Below, piece after piece: positions 531 through 9,270 of a stretch of DNA of 9,272 bases. The translations under genes were made by a program, and so were the position numbers. The notes below the pieces were generated by a model, which searched no databases, was not told where the DNA came from, and saw only the letters and a list, made by a program, of their open reading frames with translations. This DNA is from Pseudomonadota bacterium (GTDB lineage Bacteria; Pseudomonadota; Gammaproteobacteria; Burkholderiales; Burkholderiaceae): the NCBI GenBank assembly GCA_023441105.1, contig JAEZQX010000118.1, forward strand, positions 1 through 9,272, written 5' to 3'. Position 1 is the first letter of the stretch; every line of letters begins with the position of its first letter.

Positions 531-1064
531 TCAGCCTGCGCCGCGGTCCGGTCCGCGCCGCACCGGCCGGCAATCCCCGCCCAGGAACAGCGCCTCGTCG
601 CCGTCGCTCGGATCGATCACCCAGCCGATGCTGTAGGCGTTGCTGAAGAAGGCGCGCTGCGTCTGCCGGTCGGTGTCGCTGAAGAAGGCGCTGAGCCCGG
701 GATGGCTGTGGTACCAGCCGACGATCAGGTCGCCCGGCGCCAATAGCGCCTGCGCGGCCTGCCACACCTGAGATCCCATGCGCAGCGAGAAGGCGGTGCC
801 TTGGGCGTCGTCGGCCGGCGCGCAGCCGGTGATCCGAACATGCGCCAGCACGCCGGTCGACCGATCGCCGTACGGGCGGCCGACCAGCAAGCCGCCTTGC
901 TCGACATCGCGCAGGCGCAGATGCGCCAGCACCTGCCGGTCGACTGCCGGCTCGATCCAGACGTCCACGTCGCCGGGCGCCGGGGCCGTCGGCACGTCGG
1001 CAGCGCCCGCCGGAAGCGGCTCGAGCCGCAGCGCCGGCGTGGCATCGGTGAACTTGATGGCCAT
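531..1064 (-). CDS. JAB/JAMM metallopeptidase (deubiquitinase-like), last gene of Ubl operon
   Basis: This 177-residue Mov34/MPN/JAB-domain protein carries the complete JAMM zinc motif. The catalytic Glu is E55 in VEQGGLLVG, and H119-x-H121-P-x6-S129-x2-D132 lies in WYHSHPGLSAFFSDTD. Enzymes with this motif cut isopeptide or C-terminal peptide bonds of ubiquitin-like proteins, so it probably removes the operon's own Ubl from targets. Because that Ubl already ends in a bare glycine, deconjugation is likelier than precursor processing. The first 35 or so residues are Pro/Ala-rich and not clearly part of the fold. The start is supported by GGAGG at 1078-1074, nine bases before the ATG. The gene lies 21 bases after the E2 stop codon. 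It has no fused rhodanese, ubiquitin or zinc domain. The closing residues (RRGPDRGAG) look like a disordered tail. Confidence 0.92.
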   Translation of the reverse strand: MAIKFTDATPALRLEPLPAGAADVPTAPAPGDVDVWIEPAVDRQVLAHLRLRDVEQGGLLVGRPYGDRSTGVLAHVRITGCAPADDAQGTAFSLRMGSQVWQAAQALLAPGDLIVGWYHSHPGLSAFFSDTDRQTQRAFFSNAYSIGWVIDPSDGDEALFLGGDCRPVRRGPDRGAG

Positions 1065-1085
1065 GTCCTGTCGCCTCCGACCGCC

Positions 1086-1703
1086 TCAGGTGCTCACGTC
1101 GAACTCGTGGCGGCAGGCGGGGCAGGCGACGACGCCGCTGCGGCCGGCCGGCAGCCGCAGCCCCTTGCCGCAGGACGGGCAGTGTCGCACGACCCGGGAG
1201 GCGTCGGCGGGCGGGACCTTGGCAGCAGGCCGGAACAGGACCTGGTCGGTGGGAAAGGCGTCCGGCGTCCGCTTGCGCTGTTGCAGGTACCACACCGCCG
1301 CCCCGCGGTTGGCTGCCGACGCCGGATTGACATGGGCCGGATCGAAGGTGGCCAGCCGGATGAAGCGCTTGACGAGCAGGTCGAGCCCCTCGCCAGGCAG
1401 CCATTTGTCCCCCTGGCACACGACGCCGGACGCGAAGATGTTGGGATGGAAGATGCGGCTTTCCACCGTCAGCACCGGCCGCTCGAACGGATAGCGCGAC
1501 GGCAGGTCGATGCGCAGCGTCACGCCGTCCTGGCTGGCCTGCGGATAGCTTTCGGACGCGGCGGTGCGGCAGCGGATCGTCAGCCGGATCGGCCGTCCCG
1601 CGCGCGACGGCGTCTCCAGCAGCTCGATCCGGCCGCCGGATTCCAGCGCCAGCTCCCGCAGCCGCGCAAGATCGGCCTCCCGCCGCAGCGCGTGCGCGGT
1701 CAT
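1086..1703 (-). CDS. E2-like ubiquitin-conjugating enzyme with C-terminal zinc ribbon
   Basis: The product has 205 residues. Residues 1-140 or so are a UBC-fold E2. There is an N-terminal helix, then YPFERP at 71-76, HPN at 86-88 and the presumed catalytic Cys96 in GVVCQGDKW, with Trp101 after it. The gap from the HPN asparagine to the cysteine is the same as in eukaryotic E2s. The enzyme should accept the Ubl as a thioester from the E1 and pass it to a target. Residues 175-197 form a zinc ribbon (C175-x2-C178...C194-x2-C197), an appendage absent from typical E2s that could recruit substrate or act like an E3; that role is inferred. No RING or other E3 is encoded nearby. The ATG overlaps the TGA of the Ubl gene (ATGA at 1703-1700), so translation is probably coupled. 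No strong ribosome binding site is seen. An inactive UEV-type E2 is unlikely because the cysteine is present. Confidence 0.9.
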   Translation of the reverse strand: MTAHALRREADLARLRELALESGGRIELLETPSRAGRPIRLTIRCRTAASESYPQASQDGVTLRIDLPSRYPFERPVLTVESRIFHPNIFASGVVCQGDKWLPGEGLDLLVKRFIRLATFDPAHVNPASAANRGAAVWYLQQRKRTPDAFPTDQVLFRPAAKVPPADASRVVRHCPSCGKGLRLPAGRSGVVACPACRHEFDVST

Positions 1704-1948
1704 CCGGCGACGAGCACCGGCTGCACTTCCAGCACGTCGCCGCTTCTTGCCTGCTGCTCCAGCGGTTGCGATGGATTGAGCACCTGCCCGGTGGTGGTGT
1801 TGACCAGCGTGTAGTCCATGTCCGCCGGCAGCGACCAGTTGTCCACCGCCGCCTGGATGATCTCGCTGCCGGTGCTGCTCTGGTCGAAGTCGATGTCCGC
1901 GCGCCGGCTCTGGTCGGCCGTGCGCAGGACCAGCTTCCTGTCGTTCAT
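1700..1948 (-). CDS. Small ubiquitin-like (beta-grasp) protein ending in glycine
   Basis: This 82-residue gene is hidden in the last part of a longer open frame that runs antisense-like through the E1 gene. The true start is the ATG at 1948, which overlaps the E1 stop (ATGA) and has GGAG at 1960-1957, eight bases upstream. The pattern fits a beta-grasp fold: strand KLVLRTAD (5-12), strand ADIDF (17-21), helix around SEIIQAAVDNW (28-38), strand YTLVNT (46-51), then QVLNPSQPLEQQARSGD and strand VLEVQPVLV. The chain ends in Val-Ala-Gly. It resembles YukD-like and other prokaryotic Ubls more than ubiquitin itself. The free C-terminal glycine is what an E1 adenylates, so no processing step seems necessary. 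With E1, E2 and JAB beside it, this is the likely modifier. Only one glycine is present, not the GG of ubiquitin. It could instead be a sulfur carrier of the ThiS/MoaD type, but an adjacent E2 argues for conjugation. Confidence 0.88.
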   Translation of the reverse strand: MNDRKLVLRTADQSRRADIDFDQSSTGSEIIQAAVDNWSLPADMDYTLVNTTTGQVLNPSQPLEQQARSGDVLEVQPVLVAG

Positions 1949-3108
1949 GTGATGTGCTCCGTGGTTGTCGTGTGTGACCGATCCGCGGCCGTCGGCTGCA
2001 GGTCGATGCAAGTCTCGCCGACGATGGCGAAGCGCGCGGGTATGGCCATCCCCGGCGCGAAGCGGGCGGACAGTTCGCCAGGCTCGAATTCGTCGCGGAT
2101 CTGCACCCGGATCGCCTGGCTGCGGCATTGCAGGCAGAAGGTGATGCCGTCGGAGACGTCGGCCGCCCGTTGCAGTTCCACCGCCCGGGTGGCGTCGGTG
2201 CTGCCGCAGTTCGCGCATTCGCAGGACCAGATCAATCCGTCGCTCAAGCGGACGGTGTCGGCGCCGGCGACGCGGGCGGCCGCATCGATGGCAGCGCCCA
2301 TCGCCTCCCCGGCTGCAGGCCGGATCATGGCGGCAGCATGCGGGTAGGTGCCGCAGCACGGGCACACCGGCGAGCGCGTCAGGGTGGCCTGCGTGGCCAG
2401 GCCGCTGTGCGAGTCGAAGATCCAGCGCCGCGCGGCACGCGGCAGGCGCAGCGCATGATTGACCGCCTGCGCGCCGGCGAGCGATGCGGTGATGGCGGTA
2501 GTGGGCATGATGCGCCGGGCCGAGGCTGCCCGCTGCAATCCGCCGCAGGAATAGCGCTCGGCGATCTTCTGGTACACCGTGGGTGGCAACCCGCATTCGT
2601 AGCAGGCAGGCGCCGCCCGGTCGGATCCGTCGCCGACACTGCCGAACGGGAAGGTCTCGACGGTCACGTAGCGGCTGTCGATGGCGGCGTTGATCCAGTC
2701 GACACCCGCCAGCCAGCACAGCAGGTTCAGCCGCAGGCGGGCCTCGAAGTTGTCCAGCGCGCCGATGACGCAGCGGTAGCGCTGCAGTCGCTCGAAACCG
2801 AGCGTCTGCCAGAGATCGCCGTCGATGCCGGTTACCGCAACCGCCGGGTCCAGCCGGGCGGCGCGCCGCGCCACGCTCTCGGCCTTGCTGCGCCCGACAT
2901 CGGCTTCGCGCAGCAGCACCGAGCGCGTCAGGTTGTGCAGCTCGACGGTGTCGAAGTCGTGGATGTCGATGGCGCCGACACCGAGCAGGCACAGGTTCTT
3001 GACCACCTCGTTGCCGATGGCGCCGGCGCCGATCACCGCCACCCGGCTCGCCTGCAGTTCCTCCTGCGAGAACCCCTCGATGGCGCGATGCCGCGCATAG
3101 CGGTCCAT
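1945..3108 (-). CDS. E1-like ubiquitin-activating enzyme (ThiF/MoeB superfamily) with extra zinc ribbon
   Basis: This 387-residue ThiF-fold adenylating enzyme opens with MDRYARHRAI, as these proteins usually do. It has the ATP-binding loop GAGAIGNEV (27-35), the acidic HDFDTVELHNLTR stretch (50-62), K75 in GRSKAE and D119 in GALDN. A structural zinc site is formed by C169/C172 (CYEC) and C249/C252 (CPCC). C188 in ERYSCGG is the best candidate for the thioester cysteine. A second zinc-ribbon-like module follows (C298-x2-C301 and C325-x2-C328), then about 55 residues of unclear function. It should adenylate the Ubl C-terminal glycine and hand it to the E2. An in-frame stop lies directly before the ATG (3111-3109), which fixes the start. 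The ribosome binding site is weak. The gene starts 58 bases after the zinc-ribbon gene and overlaps the Ubl gene by four bases. It has no ubiquitin-fold domain like eukaryotic UBA1. Confidence 0.92.
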   Translation of the reverse strand: MDRYARHRAIEGFSQEELQASRVAVIGAGAIGNEVVKNLCLLGVGAIDIHDFDTVELHNLTRSVLLREADVGRSKAESVARRAARLDPAVAVTGIDGDLWQTLGFERLQRYRCVIGALDNFEARLRLNLLCWLAGVDWINAAIDSRYVTVETFPFGSVGDGSDRAAPACYECGLPPTVYQKIAERYSCGGLQRAASARRIMPTTAITASLAGAQAVNHALRLPRAARRWIFDSHSGLATQATLTRSPVCPCCGTYPHAAAMIRPAAGEAMGAAIDAAARVAGADTVRLSDGLIWSCECANCGSTDATRAVELQRAADVSDGITFCLQCRSQAIRVQIRDEFEPGELSARFAPGMAIPARFAIVGETCIDLQPTAADRSHTTTTEHIT

Positions 3109-3166
3109 TCAGGTGTCCAGGCGCGGCGGGACCATGCCGTGCGGCGCGATGCGACCGGCCATGGGG

Positions 3167-3577
3167 CTAGTCGACCACCTCGACGGCAATGCGGTGGATG
3201 CTGCCGCAGTTGATGCAGCGGGCGCCGTTGTCCATCGCCAGGGCGCGCACGCTCGCCACCGAATAGAAGCTCTGGCATTCGGCGCACCGGAACAACTCGG
3301 CGCCGGCATCGAGCGGACCGCCGCTCAGCGCGTCGCGCATCTCGGCCAGCGCCGAACGCCGCACGATCGAGCGCGCGTTGTAGGGCGGCGGCTGCTGCGC
3401 GCGGCTGCGCTTGGGTCCGCGCGGCCGGAAGTGCCGTTCGTCACGGCTGCCGGCGCCGGACGATGCGGTTTCAAGCAGCCGCCGGGCCGCGAGCAGGCCG
3501 GCGATGACCAGCAGGAACACCAGAAGTACTCTCGCCATTGCCGGACTCCGCAGGTCTGCTCCCGCAGGATATGCCAT
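3167..3577 (-). CDS. Membrane-anchored zinc-ribbon protein, first gene of Ubl operon (unknown function)
   Basis: This 136-residue protein matches no named family that I can recall. A hydrophobic segment at about 15-31 (ARVLLVFLLVIAGLLAA) is followed by Arg-Arg. It is probably a single N-terminal membrane anchor with the basic side, and so the rest of the protein, in the cytoplasm. A basic, Pro/Arg-rich linker (about 44-75) leads to a C-terminal zinc ribbon with C98-x2-C101 and C121-x2-C124 (FRCAEC, then RCINCGS). The start at 3577 has GGGAGGA about four bases upstream. An alternative start at 3538 (Met14, with GGAG seven bases upstream) would begin right at the anchor. It is co-directional with the E1, 58 bases ahead of it, so it is probably in the same transcript. 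Its general layout resembles PP0621-like short anchored zinc proteins. A membrane adaptor or E3-like role is only an inference from context. Confidence 0.75.
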   Translation of the reverse strand: MAYPAGADLRSPAMARVLLVFLLVIAGLLAARRLLETASSGAGSRDERHFRPRGPKRSRAQQPPPYNARSIVRRSALAEMRDALSGGPLDAGAELFRCAECQSFYSVASVRALAMDNGARCINCGSIHRIAVEVVD

Positions 3578-3642
3578 GGTTCCTCCCGTCGCCGGCGCCG
3601 CCGTGGCGGACGAAGCCGAATTTGCCGTTGTTGGCAGTCGCG

Positions 3643-3656
3643 CGGCGACAACGCCG
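3643..3656. repeat. GC-rich hairpin in the divergent intergenic region
   Basis: CGGCG (3643-3647) and CGCCG (3652-3656) pair around an ACAA loop. The pairing can extend outward with a one-base bulge through GCGC-type bases on both sides. It sits between the Ubl operon start (3577) and the aroG leader. It could be an operator or simply a product of base composition. No T-run follows it on either strand. Confidence 0.3.
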
Positions 3657-3666
3657 TCGCGCCGAT

Positions 3667-3696
3667 TTGCCAGATGGGGACGCTTGGGACTACATT
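3667..3696 (+). promoter_or_regulatory. Candidate sigma-70-type promoter for the aroG leader
   Basis: TTGCCA (3667-3672, one mismatch to TTGACA) is followed by 18 bases and TACATT (3691-3696, four of six matches to TATAAT), where GC content falls sharply. Transcription would begin near 3703, only a few bases before the leader ATG at 3706, giving an almost leaderless start. That is possible but unusual, so the real start could lie further upstream. No equally good promoter for the minus-strand operon was found. Confidence 0.3.
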
Positions 3697-3705
3697 AAAG
3701 TCAAT

Positions 3706-3783
3706 ATGCGGACGACGTACTTTTACTTCGGCTACTTTTGGGGCTTTCCTGTCGCAGGCGGGATGAGTCGGAGAGCGTGTTGA
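3706..3783 (+). CDS. Aromatic-amino-acid-rich leader peptide of aroG (attenuation control)
   Basis: This is a 25-codon open frame with ATG at 3706 and TGA at 3781-3783. Residues 5-14 read YFYFGYFWGF, so eight of ten are Tyr (3), Phe (4) or Trp (1). It lies 79 bases ahead of aroG, with an intrinsic terminator in between. This is the classic arrangement of pheA, pheS and trp leaders: ribosomes stalled on scarce charged tRNA change RNA folding and prevent termination. Three of the four Phe codons are TTT, unusual in such GC-rich DNA, and the local base composition is distinctly AT-richer than its surroundings. No clear Shine-Dalgarno sequence precedes the ATG. The mixture of Tyr, Phe and Trp codons suggests that all three end products of the pathway are sensed. 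The function is inferred from sequence and position. Confidence 0.85.
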   Translation: MRTTYFYFGYFWGFPVAGGMSRRAC

Positions 3784-3832
3784 AGTAAAAAACCAGCAGT
3801 CCGTCCGAACCGAACCGCCAGCGCGAAAGCCC
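3741..3832 (+). promoter_or_regulatory. Candidate antiterminator pairing in the aroG leader RNA
   Basis: Bases 3741-3748 (GGGCTTTC) are complementary to 3825-3832 (GAAAGCCC), 3753-3755 to 3821-3823, and 3757-3761 (GGCGG) to 3815-3819 (CCGCC). This gives 16 base pairs interrupted by a small internal loop and an A-A mismatch. The 3' partner covers the 5' arm and loop of the terminator, so the two folds exclude each other. A ribosome stalled at codons 5-8 of the leader peptide would leave 3741 onward free to pair. One read to the stop codon would not be held upstream. A short competing hairpin (3748-3751 with 3755-3758) also exists. Found by eye; no energies were computed. Confidence 0.45.
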
Positions 3833-3846
3833 TGGCGGTTTTTTTT
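3813..3846 (+). terminator. Rho-independent terminator / attenuator upstream of aroG
   Basis: A perfect 9-bp stem AACCGCCAG (3813-3821) / CTGGCGGTT (3832-3840) is capped by a C-C mismatch and an inner GC-GAAA-GC tetraloop. It is followed by an unbroken T-run ending at 3846. The T-run makes it directional for the + strand. It ends just 16 bases before the aroG ATG and follows the leader peptide, so its natural role is conditional termination ahead of aroG. There is no other complete + strand gene upstream for it to close. Confidence 0.85.
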
Positions 3847-3862
3847 ATCTGGAGCTTGCGCC

Positions 3863-4924
3863 ATGCCGACCACCGACGACCTACGAATCCGCGCCATGAA
3901 GGAACTTGCGCCCCCCGCCCACCTGATCCGGGAGTTCCCGGTCTCGCCGGTGGCCGCCGAGGTGACCAGCGAATGCCGTTCCGCCATCCACCGGATCCTG
4001 CACGGCATGGACGACCGGCTGCTGGTGATCGTCGGACCTTGCTCCATCCACGATCCGTCGGCCGCCCGGGAGTATGCGTCGCGCCTTGCGGGGCAGCGCG
4101 AGCGGCTCAAGGACCGGCTGGAGATCGTGATGCGGGTCTACTTCGAGAAGCCGCGGACCACCGTCGGCTGGAAAGGGCTGATCAACGATCCCGATCTCGA
4201 CGGCAGCTTCGACATCAACAAGGGCCTGCGCATCGCCCGCGAGCTGCTGCTCGACATCAACTCGCTCGGCGTCCCGGCGGGCACCGAATACCTCGACATG
4301 ATCACCCCGCAGTACATCGCCGACCTGATCTCCTGGGGTGCGATCGGCGCGCGCACCACCGAGTCGCAGGTGCATCGCGAGCTGGCATCGGGACTGTCGT
4401 GTCCGGTCGGCTTCAAGAACGGCACCGACGGCAGCATCCGCATCGCGCTCGACGCCATCAAGGCCGCGTCCCAGCCGCATCATTTCCTGTCGGTGACCAA
4501 GGGCGGTCATTCGGCCATCGTCTCGACCAGCGGCAACGAGGACTGCCACATCATCCTGCGCGGCGGCAAGGCGCCGAACTACGATCGCGCCAGCGTCGAG
4601 GCGGCCTGCCGCGAGGCCGGCGCGGCGGCGCTCGCCTGTCGCCTGATGATCGACTGCTCGCACGGCAACAGCCAGAAGAATCCCGACAACCAGCTGCTGG
4701 TTGCGCAGGACATCGTCGACCAGCTGAGCGAAGGCGAAGCGCGCATCTTCGGCGTGATGATCGAGAGCCACCTGGTGGCCGGGCGCGAAGACCTGATGGC
4801 GGGCCGTACGCCGACGTACGGACGCAGCATCACCGACGGCTGCCTCGGCTGGGAGGCCACCGAGCAGGCCCTGGAGCTGCTGGCCGAAGGCGTCGCCGAA
4901 CGGCGCATCGCCATGGCGCAGTGA
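3863..4924 (+). CDS. aroG: 3-deoxy-7-phosphoheptulonate (DAHP) synthase, class I AroFGH type
   Basis: The enzyme condenses phosphoenolpyruvate with erythrose 4-phosphate, the first and usually rate-controlling step of aromatic amino acid synthesis. The 353-residue length is normal for the family. Diagnostic motifs run in order: DDLRI near the N-terminus, GPCSIH (58-63), EKPRTTVGWKG (95-105), GTEYLDMITPQY, SWGAIGARTTESQ, GFKNGTDG, KGGHSAIVSTSGN, LRGGKAPNYD, DCSHGNSQK and ESHLVAG. The expected metal ligands are all present: C60, H267, E301 and D325. GGAG at 3851-3854, eight bases before the ATG, supports the start. The long N-terminal extension typical of allosterically regulated isozymes is present. 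I cannot tell from motifs which amino acid inhibits it. Transcription is probably controlled by the leader peptide and terminator just upstream. Confidence 0.97.
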   Translation: MPTTDDLRIRAMKELAPPAHLIREFPVSPVAAEVTSECRSAIHRILHGMDDRLLVIVGPCSIHDPSAAREYASRLAGQRERLKDRLEIVMRVYFEKPRTTVGWKGLINDPDLDGSFDINKGLRIARELLLDINSLGVPAGTEYLDMITPQYIADLISWGAIGARTTESQVHRELASGLSCPVGFKNGTDGSIRIALDAIKAASQPHHFLSVTKGGHSAIVSTSGNEDCHIILRGGKAPNYDRASVEAACREAGAAALACRLMIDCSHGNSQKNPDNQLLVAQDIVDQLSEGEARIFGVMIESHLVAGREDLMAGRTPTYGRSITDGCLGWEATEQALELLAEGVAERRIAMAQ

Positions 4925-6356: not shown

Positions 6357-7079
6357 ATGAACGCACCCGAAACACCGCTGACGCGGACCTCCCAGGCAAC
6401 CGACGGGCGCCTCGCCCGCGGCCTCGACACCCGCCTGCGGCTGCTGGAGGCGGCCCTGCGCCTGTTCGCGGAGAAAGGATACGCGCAAACCTCCACCCGT
6501 GAAGTCTGCCTGGCGGCGGGCGTCAATACGGCCTCGATCCACTACTACTTCGGCGACAAGGCCGGCCTCTATCGCGCCGTCTACCTGGCGCCGATCCAGC
6601 AGCTGATGGTTGCGGCACGCGCCATTGCCGAATCCGGGGAGGCTTTCGAGACGATCATGCGGCGCACCTACGAGGCGTTCCTCGCGCCGCTCAAGGCGTC
6701 CGACACGAAGACCATGCAGATCCTCAAGCTGCATTTCCGCGAGCAGGCGGATCCGACCGGCCTGTCCGGCAGCGAGGTGGTGGCGGCCGGCCAGTCGCAC
6801 TTCGATGCCCTGGTGGCCATGCTGGTCCGCGAGCTGGGGCTGGCGGCGCCGGACGACGACCTCCGCCGCCTGGCCAGCAGCCTGGTCGCGCTGGCGGTGG
6901 ACTTCCTGACCAGCGCCGACTGGCTGCGCCAGATCGCGCCGCAGCTGCATGCCGGGCCGGCGGCGATCGACCGGATGTCGGAGCGGCTGACCGGCTATGC
7001 GGTCGCCTTGCTGGAACATGAGCGCAGCCGCCGTGGCGCCGTGGCGGCAGGCGGCGGCCGCAAGGGCGCCGGCCCATGA
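6357..7079 (+). CDS. TetR/AcrR-family transcriptional regulator (CecR/DUF1956-like C-terminus)
   Basis: This 240-residue protein has an N-terminal TetR helix-turn-helix at about 26-74. The region runs LRLLEAALRLFAEKGYAQT, then STREVCLAAGVNTASIHYYF, then GDKAGLYRAV, the hallmark of the family. The helical C-terminal half (about 85-225) should form the dimer interface and ligand pocket. Its pattern, including TKTMQILKLHFREQADPTG, recalls the CecR (YbiH) type rather than AcrR. It probably represses its own operon and perhaps the divergent adenosyltransferase through the palindrome at 6311-6330. The ligand is unknown, but efflux genes downstream suggest a toxic small molecule. The TGA stop overlaps the ATG of the outer-membrane factor (ATGA at 7076-7079), so all three genes probably form one transcript. 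The last 20 residues are an Arg/Gly-rich tail. Confidence 0.93.
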   Translation: MNAPETPLTRTSQATDGRLARGLDTRLRLLEAALRLFAEKGYAQTSTREVCLAAGVNTASIHYYFGDKAGLYRAVYLAPIQQLMVAARAIAESGEAFETIMRRTYEAFLAPLKASDTKTMQILKLHFREQADPTGLSGSEVVAAGQSHFDALVAMLVRELGLAAPDDDLRRLASSLVALAVDFLTSADWLRQIAPQLHAGPAAIDRMSERLTGYAVALLEHERSRRGAVAAGGGRKGAGP

Positions 7080-8542
7080 GGCGGCCGGTCGTCCTCCGGA
7101 TGCGCCGCGGGCTCGCGCTGCTGCTGCCGCTGATAATGGCCGGCTGCGCGGTCGCGGTGCCGGATCCGACGCCACCGGCGCCGGCGGCCAGCGCCTGGCA
7201 GGCGCCGCTGCCGCACGATGGCGATCCCATCCAGCTTGCCCAATGGTGGCAGCGTTTCGAGGATCCGGTGCTGGTGCAGCTGGTGGCCGCTGCCCAGCGC
7301 GACAACCCCGGTATCGCCGCCTCCCTGGCGCGGGTTCGGCAGGCGCGCGCCACCGCCGTGGTCGCCGGCGCCAGCCGACTGCCCACCGTCGATGCCAACG
7401 GCCAGCTCATCCGGCGTTCCAGCCTGGAGCCGCCGGCAGTCGTGGCGACCATCGCGGGCGTGTCGCTCGATGCCGCCTGGGAGCTCGACCTGTTCGGCGC
7501 CAACCGGTACGGGCGCGAGGCGGCGCTCGCCCGACTCGATGCGCGCGCCGCCGAATGGCACGACGCGCGGGTGACGCTGGCGGCCGAGGTGGCCGCCGGC
7601 TACGCCAACCTGCGGCTGTGCGAGGCGGAGTTGCAGGTGCTGCGCGAGGATCTCGACTCGCAGCGCGTGGTGCTCGACCTCACCCGGCGCAAGGTCCGCA
7701 GCGGCTTTTCGCCGCCGGCCGATGCGGCGCTGATCGACGCCGCCACCGCGGACGCCGCCAACCGCTTGCGCGCCAAGCAGGCGCAGTGCGACCTGCTGGT
7801 CAAGTCGCTGGTCACGCTGACCGCGCAGCCCGAGCCGGTATTGCGCGGGCAGCTGGCCGCCGGTCGCGCCCGGCTGCCGCAGCCGGCGGTGCTGGCCGTG
7901 CAGGAGGTGCCGGCCGCCGTGCTGGCACAGCGGCCCGACCTGGCGGCGCTGGAGCGCGAAATGATGGCGGCCGCCAAGGAGGTCGGCGTCGCGCAGGCGG
8001 ACCGGTTCCCGCGCATCGGGCTCACCGGCTCGATCGGCTACGCCGCCTTCCGGGCCCTGGGCATCACCGGTACCGGCGCCACCTGGTCCTTCGGCCCGAC
8101 CTTGTCGCTGCCGTTGTTCGACGCCGGGCGCCGCGTCGCGGTGGTCGAGCAGAGCAGCGCGCGCCTGGACGAGCTGGCGGCGAACTACCGGCAGCGGGCG
8201 ACGGCCGCGGTCCAGGAGGTCGAGGAAGCGCTGGTGCGGCTGGCCAGCGCCAACGACCGGCTCAAGGATGCGGAGCGGGCGGCGCAGAGCTTCCAGGTCT
8301 ACCTGAAGGCCGCCCGGACGCGGTTCGAGATCGGCGCCGGCAGCGCCTTCGAGCTGGAGGAGGCGCGGCGGTCGTCGCTCAATGCCGTGGCCTCGCTGCT
8401 GCAGGTGCGCAGCGAGCGGGTCGCGGCCGGCGTCTCCCTCTACAAGGCGCTCGGCGGCGGCTGGGACGTCGATCCGCCGCCGCCGCCGCAGGCCGCAGCC
8501 GGCGGCGAAGTGCGCAGGCAATCAACCAAAGCGAAACCATGA
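7076..8542 (+). CDS. NodT-family outer-membrane efflux lipoprotein (TolC-like)
   Basis: The 488-residue product begins with a lipoprotein signal peptide: basic MRRPVVLRMRRG, a hydrophobic run, then lipobox LIMAGC with Cys24 as the lipidation site. Two OEP (TolC-like) repeats follow. Recognisable pieces are WWQRFEDPVLVQLVAAA, the AWELDLFGANRYG motif near 140, and the second-repeat equivalents VLAQRPDLAALEREMMAA, QADRFPRIGLTGSIGY and WSFGPTLSLPLFDAGRR. It should form a trimeric beta-barrel and periplasmic tunnel that exports substrates from an RND pump. It overlaps tetR upstream and the periplasmic adaptor downstream, both by ATGA. The C-terminus has a PPPPPP stretch. The pump gene itself would lie beyond the window. 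Substrate cannot be told from sequence. Confidence 0.95.
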   Translation: MRRPVVLRMRRGLALLLPLIMAGCAVAVPDPTPPAPAASAWQAPLPHDGDPIQLAQWWQRFEDPVLVQLVAAAQRDNPGIAASLARVRQARATAVVAGASRLPTVDANGQLIRRSSLEPPAVVATIAGVSLDAAWELDLFGANRYGREAALARLDARAAEWHDARVTLAAEVAAGYANLRLCEAELQVLREDLDSQRVVLDLTRRKVRSGFSPPADAALIDAATADAANRLRAKQAQCDLLVKSLVTLTAQPEPVLRGQLAAGRARLPQPAVLAVQEVPAAVLAQRPDLAALEREMMAAAKEVGVAQADRFPRIGLTGSIGYAAFRALGITGTGATWSFGPTLSLPLFDAGRRVAVVEQSSARLDELAANYRQRATAAVQEVEEALVRLASANDRLKDAERAAQSFQVYLKAARTRFEIGAGSAFELEEARRSSLNAVASLLQVRSERVAAGVSLYKALGGGWDVDPPPPPQAAAGGEVRRQSTKAKP

Positions 8543-9153
8543 AGAGAGCTGCAACCCGGTTGGTCAACGCGGTGGTGCTGGTCGCCATCCTGCTGGTTTC
8601 CGGCTGGTGGTTCCACGTCCGCGAACCGGCGCCGCGCGAGACGGCGATCGTGCCGGCGGCGCATCCGGCGAACCAAAGACCGGCCATGACCGTGACCGTG
8701 GTCAAGCCGTTGGCCAGGGAATGGCAGACCCGGCTCGCGGCCGATGGGAGCGTCGCGGCCTGGCAGGAGGTGTCGATCAGCCCCGAGGTCGGCGGCTACC
8801 GGATCGCCGAGGTCCTGGTCAACGTCGGCGACAAGGTGAAGAAGGGCGACGTGCTGGCGACCCTCAGCAGCACCCTGCTCGCCAACGACCTGGCGCAGCA
8901 GCGGGCGGCGCTGGCCGAGGCCCGCGCCGGCTTGTCCGAGGCCTCCGCCAACGCGGCGCGGGCGCGCCAGCTGCAGGATTCGGGCGCGATCAGCGCCCAG
9001 CAGGTGAGCCAGTACCTGACGGCGGAACAGACCGCGCGGGCGCGGCTGCAGGCGGCGGAGGCCCGGATCAAGTCCGAGGAGCTGCGCCTGAGCCAGAGCA
9101 GCGTCGTCGCGCCCGACGACGGGGTGATCTCGGTTCGGGCGGCGACGGCCGGT
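8539..9153 (+). CDS. RND efflux periplasmic adaptor (membrane fusion protein), N-terminal part, broken by rearrangement
   Basis: The ATG at 8539 overlaps the stop of the outer-membrane factor. About 205 codons read as a normal HlyD/AcrA-type adaptor. There is an N-terminal membrane anchor (about 8-24), then the first half of the lipoyl domain, VSISPEVGGYRIAEVLVNVGDKVKKGDVLATL (78-109). An alpha-helical hairpin with LAQQRAALAEARAGLSEA and SGAISAQQVSQYLTAEQTARARL follows, and then the second lipoyl half SSVVAPDDGVISVRAATAG (187-205). Adaptors link the inner-membrane pump to the outer-membrane channel. The family is about 370-400 residues long, so roughly half is missing. The + frame stays open to the window end, but the last 40 codons do not look like an adaptor: a later piece of the adaptor lies on the opposite strand there. 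The break is at about 9141-9153. Confidence 0.88.
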
Positions 9154-9270
9154 CTCGATCTTCGACAAGGCCACGCGGTTGCCGGCACCGAGCTTGAAGA
9201 GATAGGAGAAGCCGTCGCGGACCAGCACGCTGGCCGCCGGCACGGTCAGCGCCTGGCTTCGGCCGAGGTT
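9142..9270 (-). pseudogene. Inverted downstream fragment of an RND periplasmic adaptor
   Basis: Read on the minus strand from 9270, 43 codons give LGRSQALTVPAAS, then VLVRDGFSYLFKLGAGNRV, then ALSKIETGRR. This is the beta-barrel to membrane-proximal region of RND adaptors, which normally lies about 100 residues beyond the point where the + strand copy stops. The similarity ends at TGRR (9142-9153), exactly where the + strand copy also loses sense. The simplest reading is that both pieces come from one gene, with the second flipped and the intervening part displaced. It may be a true inversion or an assembly or amplification chimera. It could also belong to a second adaptor gene on the other strand, but the meeting of two mid-gene pieces argues against that. 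Confidence 0.75.

Follow-up and report, generated by a model that had tools for sequence, protein, structure and literature searches.

A Burkholderiaceae operon for a probable ubiquitin-like conjugation pathway with a membrane-anchored RING/U-box-like candidate E3

Contig JAEZQX010000118.1 of a Burkholderiaceae bacterium (assembly GCA_023441105.1; 9,272 nucleotides, analysed as a whole and called the window here) carries five minus-strand open reading frames (ORFs) at 531-3577 that resemble the parts of a ubiquitin-like conjugation system. In transcription order, they encode a transmembrane protein with a presumed zinc site, an E1-like activating enzyme, a ubiquitin-like protein (Ubl), an E2 conjugating enzyme and a JAB/JAMM peptidase (Table 1). 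Four-base ATGA overlaps join E1 to Ubl and Ubl to E2, the membrane gene lies 58 bases before E1, and JAB follows 21 bases after E2. The operon is flanked by the 3' end of tldD (1-498, convergent) and by a gene for DAHP synthase (3863-4924, divergent). A complete E1-Ubl-E2-JAB operon had been described here in the initial annotation, and the ORFs and Pfam hidden Markov model matches to the E1, E2 and JAB bear this out. The active-site residues named there for the Ubl, E1, E2 and JAB are kept across homologues in our family alignments, and the general marks of a ubiquitin-type system (a C-terminal Gly on the Ubl, a candidate catalytic Cys in the E1 and a catalytic Cys in the E2) are all present. 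The five genes probably form a complete, reversible Ubl conjugation pathway with its own membrane-tethered RING/U-box-like E3.

Table 1. Genes of the operon and predicted features of their products, with positions in the window
Feature	Positions	Strand	Basis
Membrane-anchored RING/U-box-like protein, candidate E3, 136 residues	3167..3577	-	ORF, AlphaFold2 (AF2) model, Foldseek, distant homologues
Predicted transmembrane segment, residues 13-31	3485..3541	-	Best 19-residue hydropathy 2.56; AF2 helix 12-38
RING/U-box-like domain, residues 78-136	3170..3346	-	AF2 model, Foldseek, alignments
E1-like activating enzyme, 387 residues, one adenylation domain and C-terminal domain like the ubiquitin-fold domain (UFD)	1945..3108	-	ThiF 2.7e-39
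Candidate catalytic Cys188 of E1, in RYSCG	2545..2547	-	Invariant in 15/15 and in 49 rows of a larger alignment
UFD-like domain of E1, about residues 265-372, with inserted zinc ribbon C298 C301 C325 C328	1993..2316	-	Model and structure alignments
Single-domain Ubl, 82 residues, C-terminus VAG without tail	1700..1948	-	Family alignment
E2 conjugating enzyme, 205 residues	1086..1703	-	UQ_con 1.2e-7
Catalytic Cys96 of E2, with HPN at residues 86-88	1416..1418	-	E2 alignment
C-terminal zinc ribbon of E2, residues 175-197, CPSC...CPAC	1113..1181	-	Alignment; weak zinc-ribbon matches
JAB/JAMM peptidase, 177 residues	531..1064	-	Prok-JAB 5.3e-11
JAMM core, H119-x-H121-P...S129-x2-D132	669..710	-	Invariant in 15/15
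JAB N-terminus with Phe variant of PhixWx[DE], MAIKFTDATP	1035..1064	-	Motif comparison

The adenylation domain of the E1 resembles MoeB and SAE2 alike, with scores of 109.8 bits for SAE2, 108.9 for MoeB and 100.3 for Uba1, the last being that of the best single domain in the top chain. A closer kinship with Uba1 than with MoeB was considered and rejected, because the whole-chain scores of Uba1 and UBA7 sum two adenylation domains. The E1 model (pLDDT 89, pTM 0.89) retrieved ThiF, UBA5 and MoeB as the first Foldseek rows. In structure alignments ranked by VIA Z, MoeB (29.3) and ThiF (28.8) stand highest, but their alignments end at residue 253-254. By comparison, several Uba1 rows (268-294 residues, root-mean-square deviation 3.2-4.5) and one SAE2 row (289 residues) extend to residue 370-372, where their UFD ends; other SAE2 and UBA6 rows touch the E1 tail with few residues. 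On the strength of these whole-chain model alignments, we read the tail as UFD-like. The ThiF/MoeB-type adenylation domain, and the leading place of MoeB and ThiF by Z, could also point to a sulfur-carrier or tRNA-thiolation pathway of the ThiS/MoaD/Urm1 kind, with the JAB as a processing enzyme. However, the E1 has no Pfam match to a rhodanese domain and ends in the UFD-like tail, and the E2 looks catalytically complete, with both HPN and Cys; we regard such a pathway as very improbable.

The modifier had been annotated as a single domain of 82 residues, which agrees with the similar length of its aligned relatives. Gly82 is invariant in all 18 aligned members, and the C-terminus reads AG in 17 of these rows and GG in the remaining one, from an operon on a Crinalium plasmid (L038; L and G numbers denote loci and genomes). 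One to six residues follow the terminal Gly in 9/18 Ubls, which would therefore need trimming; the window Ubl has none. No Pfam family matches the window Ubl, nor is it among the eight of 18 members that match YukD at E values up to 1 (best 9.5e-6). The best single-domain solved match of the Ubl profile is a ubiquitin design (5.8e-4); a match to polyubiquitin (9.4e-7) was discounted, as its score sums repeats. The Crinalium operon itself carries tandem Ubl-like genes, at 9165-9413 (ending without Gly) and 9485-9742 (ending GGY).

Both remaining enzymes have well-conserved catalytic residues. Cys96 and Pro87 of the E2 are invariant in 38/38 rows, with His86 and Asn88 nearly so, and the E2 profile finds UBE2A as its best solved match (4.8e-12). 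The E2 had been singled out for having its own zinc ribbon. The ribbon is there in the window, and also in the E2 of L010, but it is absent from L011, L012, L013, L014 and L015 and from the cyanobacterial-type E2s, and is therefore not a core part of the family. In the JAB, Glu55, His119, His121, Ser129 and Asp132 are invariant in all 15 rows. The best solved match of its profile is an Rpn11-like protein (6fjv, 1.1e-18), which we take to be that of Caldiarchaeum subterraneum.

The product of the leading gene had been called a zinc-ribbon membrane protein, a label that we would replace: the AF2 model, Foldseek and distant homologues favour reading it as a RING/U-box-like protein of one zinc, held on a membrane anchor, and as a candidate E3. 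Its start is unsure. By eye, a good Shine-Dalgarno sequence precedes the start at 3577, but among the close homologues listed most have only about 123-134 residues, so that the protein may have 136 residues or, from an alternative start at codon 14, 123. Net charge is +6 in the 35 residues after the transmembrane segment and 0 before it, and the RING-like domain is therefore predicted to be cytosolic. In this domain one four-Cys site is kept (presumed zinc ligands C98, C101, C121 and C124), while D82-A-L84-S stands at the place of the first RING Cys pair; the first-site ligands are replaced by Asp and Ser, Thr or Asp, and by Tyr-x-x-x-Ser. Foldseek gave a Prp19 U-box as the top match for the AF2 model, with a weak E value of 0.15, and RING and U-box titles make up the largest named group in the VIA structure list. 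Six distant homologues read C-x2-C-x-TGYH-x2-SW, and five of the six, standing in the same gene order, match the Pfam family Prok-RING_1 below its cut-off. Finally, the RING-like gene is stably linked to the operon across loci.

Several observations weigh against this assignment and would suit a protein that is only a zinc-ribbon anchor or scaffold, leaving E1 and E2 to conjugate on their own. A RING has two zinc sites and a U-box none; the membrane protein, with its one presumed site, is intermediate. The window protein has no match to any Pfam RING family (its Pfam matches are all to weak zinc families, below cut-off), and only one of the 13 members of the membrane-protein alignment matches a RING family, weakly (0.15). 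The fold scores are modest, and no RING-like gene was found in genomes G012 and G016 or at loci L038 and L069. Against a mere scaffold stand the motif and Prok-RING_1 matches of the distant homologues, the RING and U-box titles in the VIA list and the stable linkage of the gene to the operon, and we consider it somewhat unlikely. That the RING/U-box-like protein may act as E3 is supported by the predicted fold and gene order. Among its relatives, L064 has tandem RING-like genes before E1 (2696-3193 and 3254-3859), and the Rhodospirillaceae-type RING-like membrane proteins of L010 (11186-12319) and L013 (11065-11874) have, by eye, secreted-looking Cys-rich repeats before the transmembrane segment, in a receptor-E3-like arrangement. 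In L008 an in-frame stop falls in the part preceding the RING-like domain (8107-8235).

The operon belongs to a family that is rare and widely scattered. The protein collection holds 104 E2 homologues, and a scan of the genome collection with the E2 alignment gave 16 loci, a lower bound since the scan needs exact patterns. These come from Paraburkholderia ribeironis, Cupriavidus sp. amp6, Lautropia, Lysobacterales, Rhodospirillaceae and a cyanobacterium, among others; the E1 homologues (best 120 of 2781 listed) include those of Paraburkholderia strydomiana, atlantica and nemoris. A survey of neighbourhoods, as the initial annotation had proposed, confirmed the gene order: E1-Ubl-E2 is kept in 15/16 loci (L009 is cut off), and JAB comes next in 14 (L008 is cut off, none was found in L016, and L001 has the JAB start alone). 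Apart from operon genes and overlapping frames, flanking ORFs are almost never common to loci. The kept gene order amid mostly unshared surroundings indicates that the grouping is not due to chance. In L016, the E1 reading is spread over two overlapping frames (7836-9034), perhaps through sequencing error or decay.

Prevalence was counted with the centre genome included each time. A whole E2 was found in 3/399 genomes of the order of L005 (G002, G005 and G046; at most seven candidates scored per genome). The other 18 of the 21 E2-profile matches there were set aside, since they cover C-terminal stretches alone, between residues 124 and 205 and mostly the zinc ribbon; the Ubl profile then took the place of the E2 profile for prevalence. 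It matched 2/299 genomes in the family of L005, 7/194 in the phylum of L016, and 1/299 and 1/248 in the phylum and order of L013, in both cases L013's own genome. Marinimicrobia was rejected as the phylum of L013, G065 being drawn from both the L005 order and the L013 phylum; the genome collection seems to place the L013 record, titled Candidatus Marinimicrobia like L011 and L015, in the phylum of Paraburkholderia. No relative of the window E2 was found in plasmids. An E1 search of plasmids returned 302 records, of which the 40 listed are mainly MoeB/ThiF-type, with one at 90% coverage (Crinalium NC_019754). The closest named relative of the window operon is a Lautropia metagenome-assembled genome (L001; E1 76% identical, Ubl 89%), which points to a host in the Burkholderiales, and the two group together (100/100) inside a clade of nine rows in a 28-row E1 tree that is midpoint-rooted and includes one very long row (L038). 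When the Ubl, E1, JAB and membrane protein were compared between loci, without the E2, conservation was highest for the Ubl in 55/55 pairs.

A small DnaJ-domain gene stands directly before E1 in 7/17 genomes (L005, L007, L010, L011, L013, L014 and L015). The DnaJ domain scores over cut-off in all three of these J proteins that were scanned, and HPD is invariant. A profile built from the seven gives E < 1e-38 at the seven operon sites only; of the other 10 genomes, nine have weaker matches (3e-9 at best) that are presumably to ordinary DnaJ proteins, and G004 has none. By its ORF list the window's own operon has no J-domain gene. The other named loci in the window's E1 clade (L001, L002, L003, L006 and L008) have no operonic J gene either, and the remaining rows are proteins without context; it is possible that the gene was lost in this clade or gained separately elsewhere.

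A short motif, PhixWx[DE] or near variants, recurs in the family: close to the N-terminus of the JAB and of the J protein, within the E2 tail, and in some RING-like proteins. We noticed it after looking, and its counts are descriptive: it is present in 12/15 JAB N-termini (not in the window, L002 or L012), in all seven J proteins and in none of 128 flanking ORFs, with Trp in 10/17 E2 tails, and in the E2 tail at 8/8 cyanobacterial-type loci (L016 counted in both sets). The window operon carries Phe variants only (Table 1). The Crinalium operon contains nine copies versus a shuffle mean of 0.28 and maximum of 3 (2000 shuffles). On the Crinalium plasmid and in L069, the motif is repeated in a coupling-type ATPase of the type IV secretion system (T4SS) kind and in small proteins downstream of JAB, and none was seen in the E1 or Ubl of either; because of this absence, E1 or Ubl could be the common partner of the motif, a suggestion made after the fact. 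The region after JAB in L038 (11480-14277) and L069 (1431-3825) carries the T4SS coupling-protein-like ATPase (PF02534 1.4e-19 in L069) and small LNWRD-type repeat proteins.

How does this operon compare with known systems? As in BilABCD, genes for E1, E2, Ubl and JAB lie within one bacterial operon. BilA has two Ubl domains, BilD has an inactive and an active adenylation domain and a Cys domain of about 80 residues, and BilB has a CEHH active site (PMC11354881). In the window, by contrast, the Ubl has one domain, as lengths suggest for the other 17 aligned members, the E1 has a single ThiF domain with a UFD-like tail, and the E2 has HPN, with L, G and L at positions +6, +8 and +13 after Cys96. 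Thus, three of the four Bil features tested are missing and only the JAB/JAMM peptidase is shared, which upholds the earlier view that the layout differs from Bil. Iyer et al. 2006 defined operon types 6a-6e, of which 6d, with stand-alone Ubl, JAB, E1 and E2, is alike in gene content (PMC1779556). However, the 6d E2 lacks the classical His and has one His downstream of Cys, and in type 6d the JAB begins with an alpha+beta domain that has conserved Arg and Trp, while a novel alpha-helical protein is present as well (PMC1779556); the window E2 has HPN, and no His after Cys96 is invariant or nearly so in the E2 alignment. About 35-45 residues precede the core of the window JAB, with a nearly invariant Trp column that is Phe in the window.

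In its working parts, the window operon is closest to that of Caldiarchaeum subterraneum, which encodes a Ub-like modifier, an E1 with a C-terminal ubiquitin-like domain, an E2, a small RING protein and an Rpn11/JAMM protease that trims pro-ubiquitin (PMC5654768). Both bring modifier, E1, E2, RING-like protein and JAMM together, and the tailed Ubls of this family recall the archaeal precursor. The window Ubl ends in AG rather than Gly-Gly, and its RING-like protein sits on a membrane anchor and has a single zinc site. Bub operons (Ye 2026, Gong 2025; mentioned in PMC13373217) likewise serve Ubl conjugation in bacteria. Oxyester chemistry and a DUF6527 protease are reported for Bub. No chain of Bil, Bub or the cyclic oligonucleotide-based system CBASS was named in the best 50 VIA rows of each list, which is no evidence of absence. 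In 2011 Burroughs, Iyer and Aravind reportedly predicted, in Mol BioSyst, prokaryotic operons with C-terminal-UFD E1, E2, JAB, RING fingers and YukD-like Ubls, all of which have recognisable counterparts in the window. This kind of operon was therefore probably predicted already; among the open-literature titles and abstracts listed, a scope that leaves out most subscription papers, none was recognised as describing such an operon with a J-domain partner or a membrane RING. The operon had been put forward as a distinct subtype: it does differ from the tested Bil and 6d features, but its kind is known, if largely uncharacterised.

How might the pathway work? From the conserved residues, the E1 would adenylate the C-terminal Gly of the Ubl and load the Ubl on Cys188, and from the predicted fold its UFD-like domain would pass it to Cys96 of the HPN-type E2. 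The RING/U-box-like domain, tethered under the inner membrane by its N-terminal helix, may then bring the charged E2 to the membrane or to membrane-proximal substrates. The JAMM peptidase would remove the Ubl, and would also mature the tailed Ubls of relatives. This conjugation scheme is well supported by the sequences, somewhat less so once the E3 is included. Because the operons of some relatives, though not the window's, include a gene for an Hsp70 co-chaperone, the likeliest job may be marking aberrant or membrane-associated proteins, in quality control or envelope stress; we advance this role tentatively. In a fuller version, misfolded or envelope proteins would be tagged by a membrane-tethered E3 of the one-zinc RING/U-box type, with extra Cys-rich sequence on the far side of the membrane in some lineages, together with a J protein, the UFD E1, the E2 and a deubiquitinase, all of them docking on Ubl or E1 through PhixWx[DE]; this is rather unlikely to hold as a whole. 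If it is true, the operon would be the bacterial equivalent of ubiquitin quality control linked to membranes and chaperones. Sets of E1, E2, E3 and deubiquitinase in which the E1 tail has a ubiquitin fold are known best in archaea and eukaryotes. The operon makes testable whether bacteria use dedicated E3s and whether chaperone-coupled Ubl tagging arose outside eukaryotes, and the shared motif offers an immediate way to map binding partners.

Related bacterial E1/E2/JAB systems defend against phage, and to our knowledge the bacterial Ubl systems studied so far are mainly tied to that function. The initial annotation had guessed at antiviral defence, in which the Ubl would be conjugated to phage or host proteins as in BilABCD. 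This kinship and the sporadic distribution of the operon are consistent with it, as is the Cupriavidus locus L007, where a type I restriction enzyme, a PDC-S28 homologue and a defence-type ATPase follow; these were three of ten flank ORFs scanned singly, the other seven giving nothing at 1e-10. The wider flank survey took in 128 ORFs (123 from L002-L016 and five of the window). Its PADLOC matches span 162 families; the 25 listed include PD-T4-6, mad3/mad8, PDC-M37B, DolB and Specificity_I (loci untraced or partly traced), and many of them read as general enzymes or ATPases. PADLOC matches of the window's E1 and JAB are of the generic E1-E2 and JAB kinds, but its E2, Ubl and membrane protein have none at E values up to 1. 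Furthermore, the flank Pfam families are mainly metabolic (25 of 161 listed), the window operon sits between tldD and DAHP synthase, a pattern search of viral contigs found no E2 relative, and a J-domain gene is not known to be a part of Bil. The search for defence islands thus left L007 as the one locus clearly beside a restriction gene, and the guess has no other positive support beyond kinship and rarity, no search aimed at CapW/CapH/CapK-type regulators having been made. Antiphage defence is neither supported nor excluded for this operon, and we judge it unlikely. A J partner and a membrane anchor speak for quality control or envelope stress; a role in conflict is favoured by the rarity of the operon and its kinship with defence systems.

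Two further features lie elsewhere in the window, on the plus strand. Just before the DAHP synthase start at 3863, a strong hairpin and T-run (3812-3841) come after a 25-residue leader peptide with many aromatic residues (3706-3783; MRTTYFYFGYFWGFPVAGGMSRRAC), and together they look like an aromatic amino acid attenuator. At 6357-9270, an adjoining efflux operon encodes, by ORF reading, a TetR-type regulator, an outer-membrane efflux protein and an HlyD-like adaptor.

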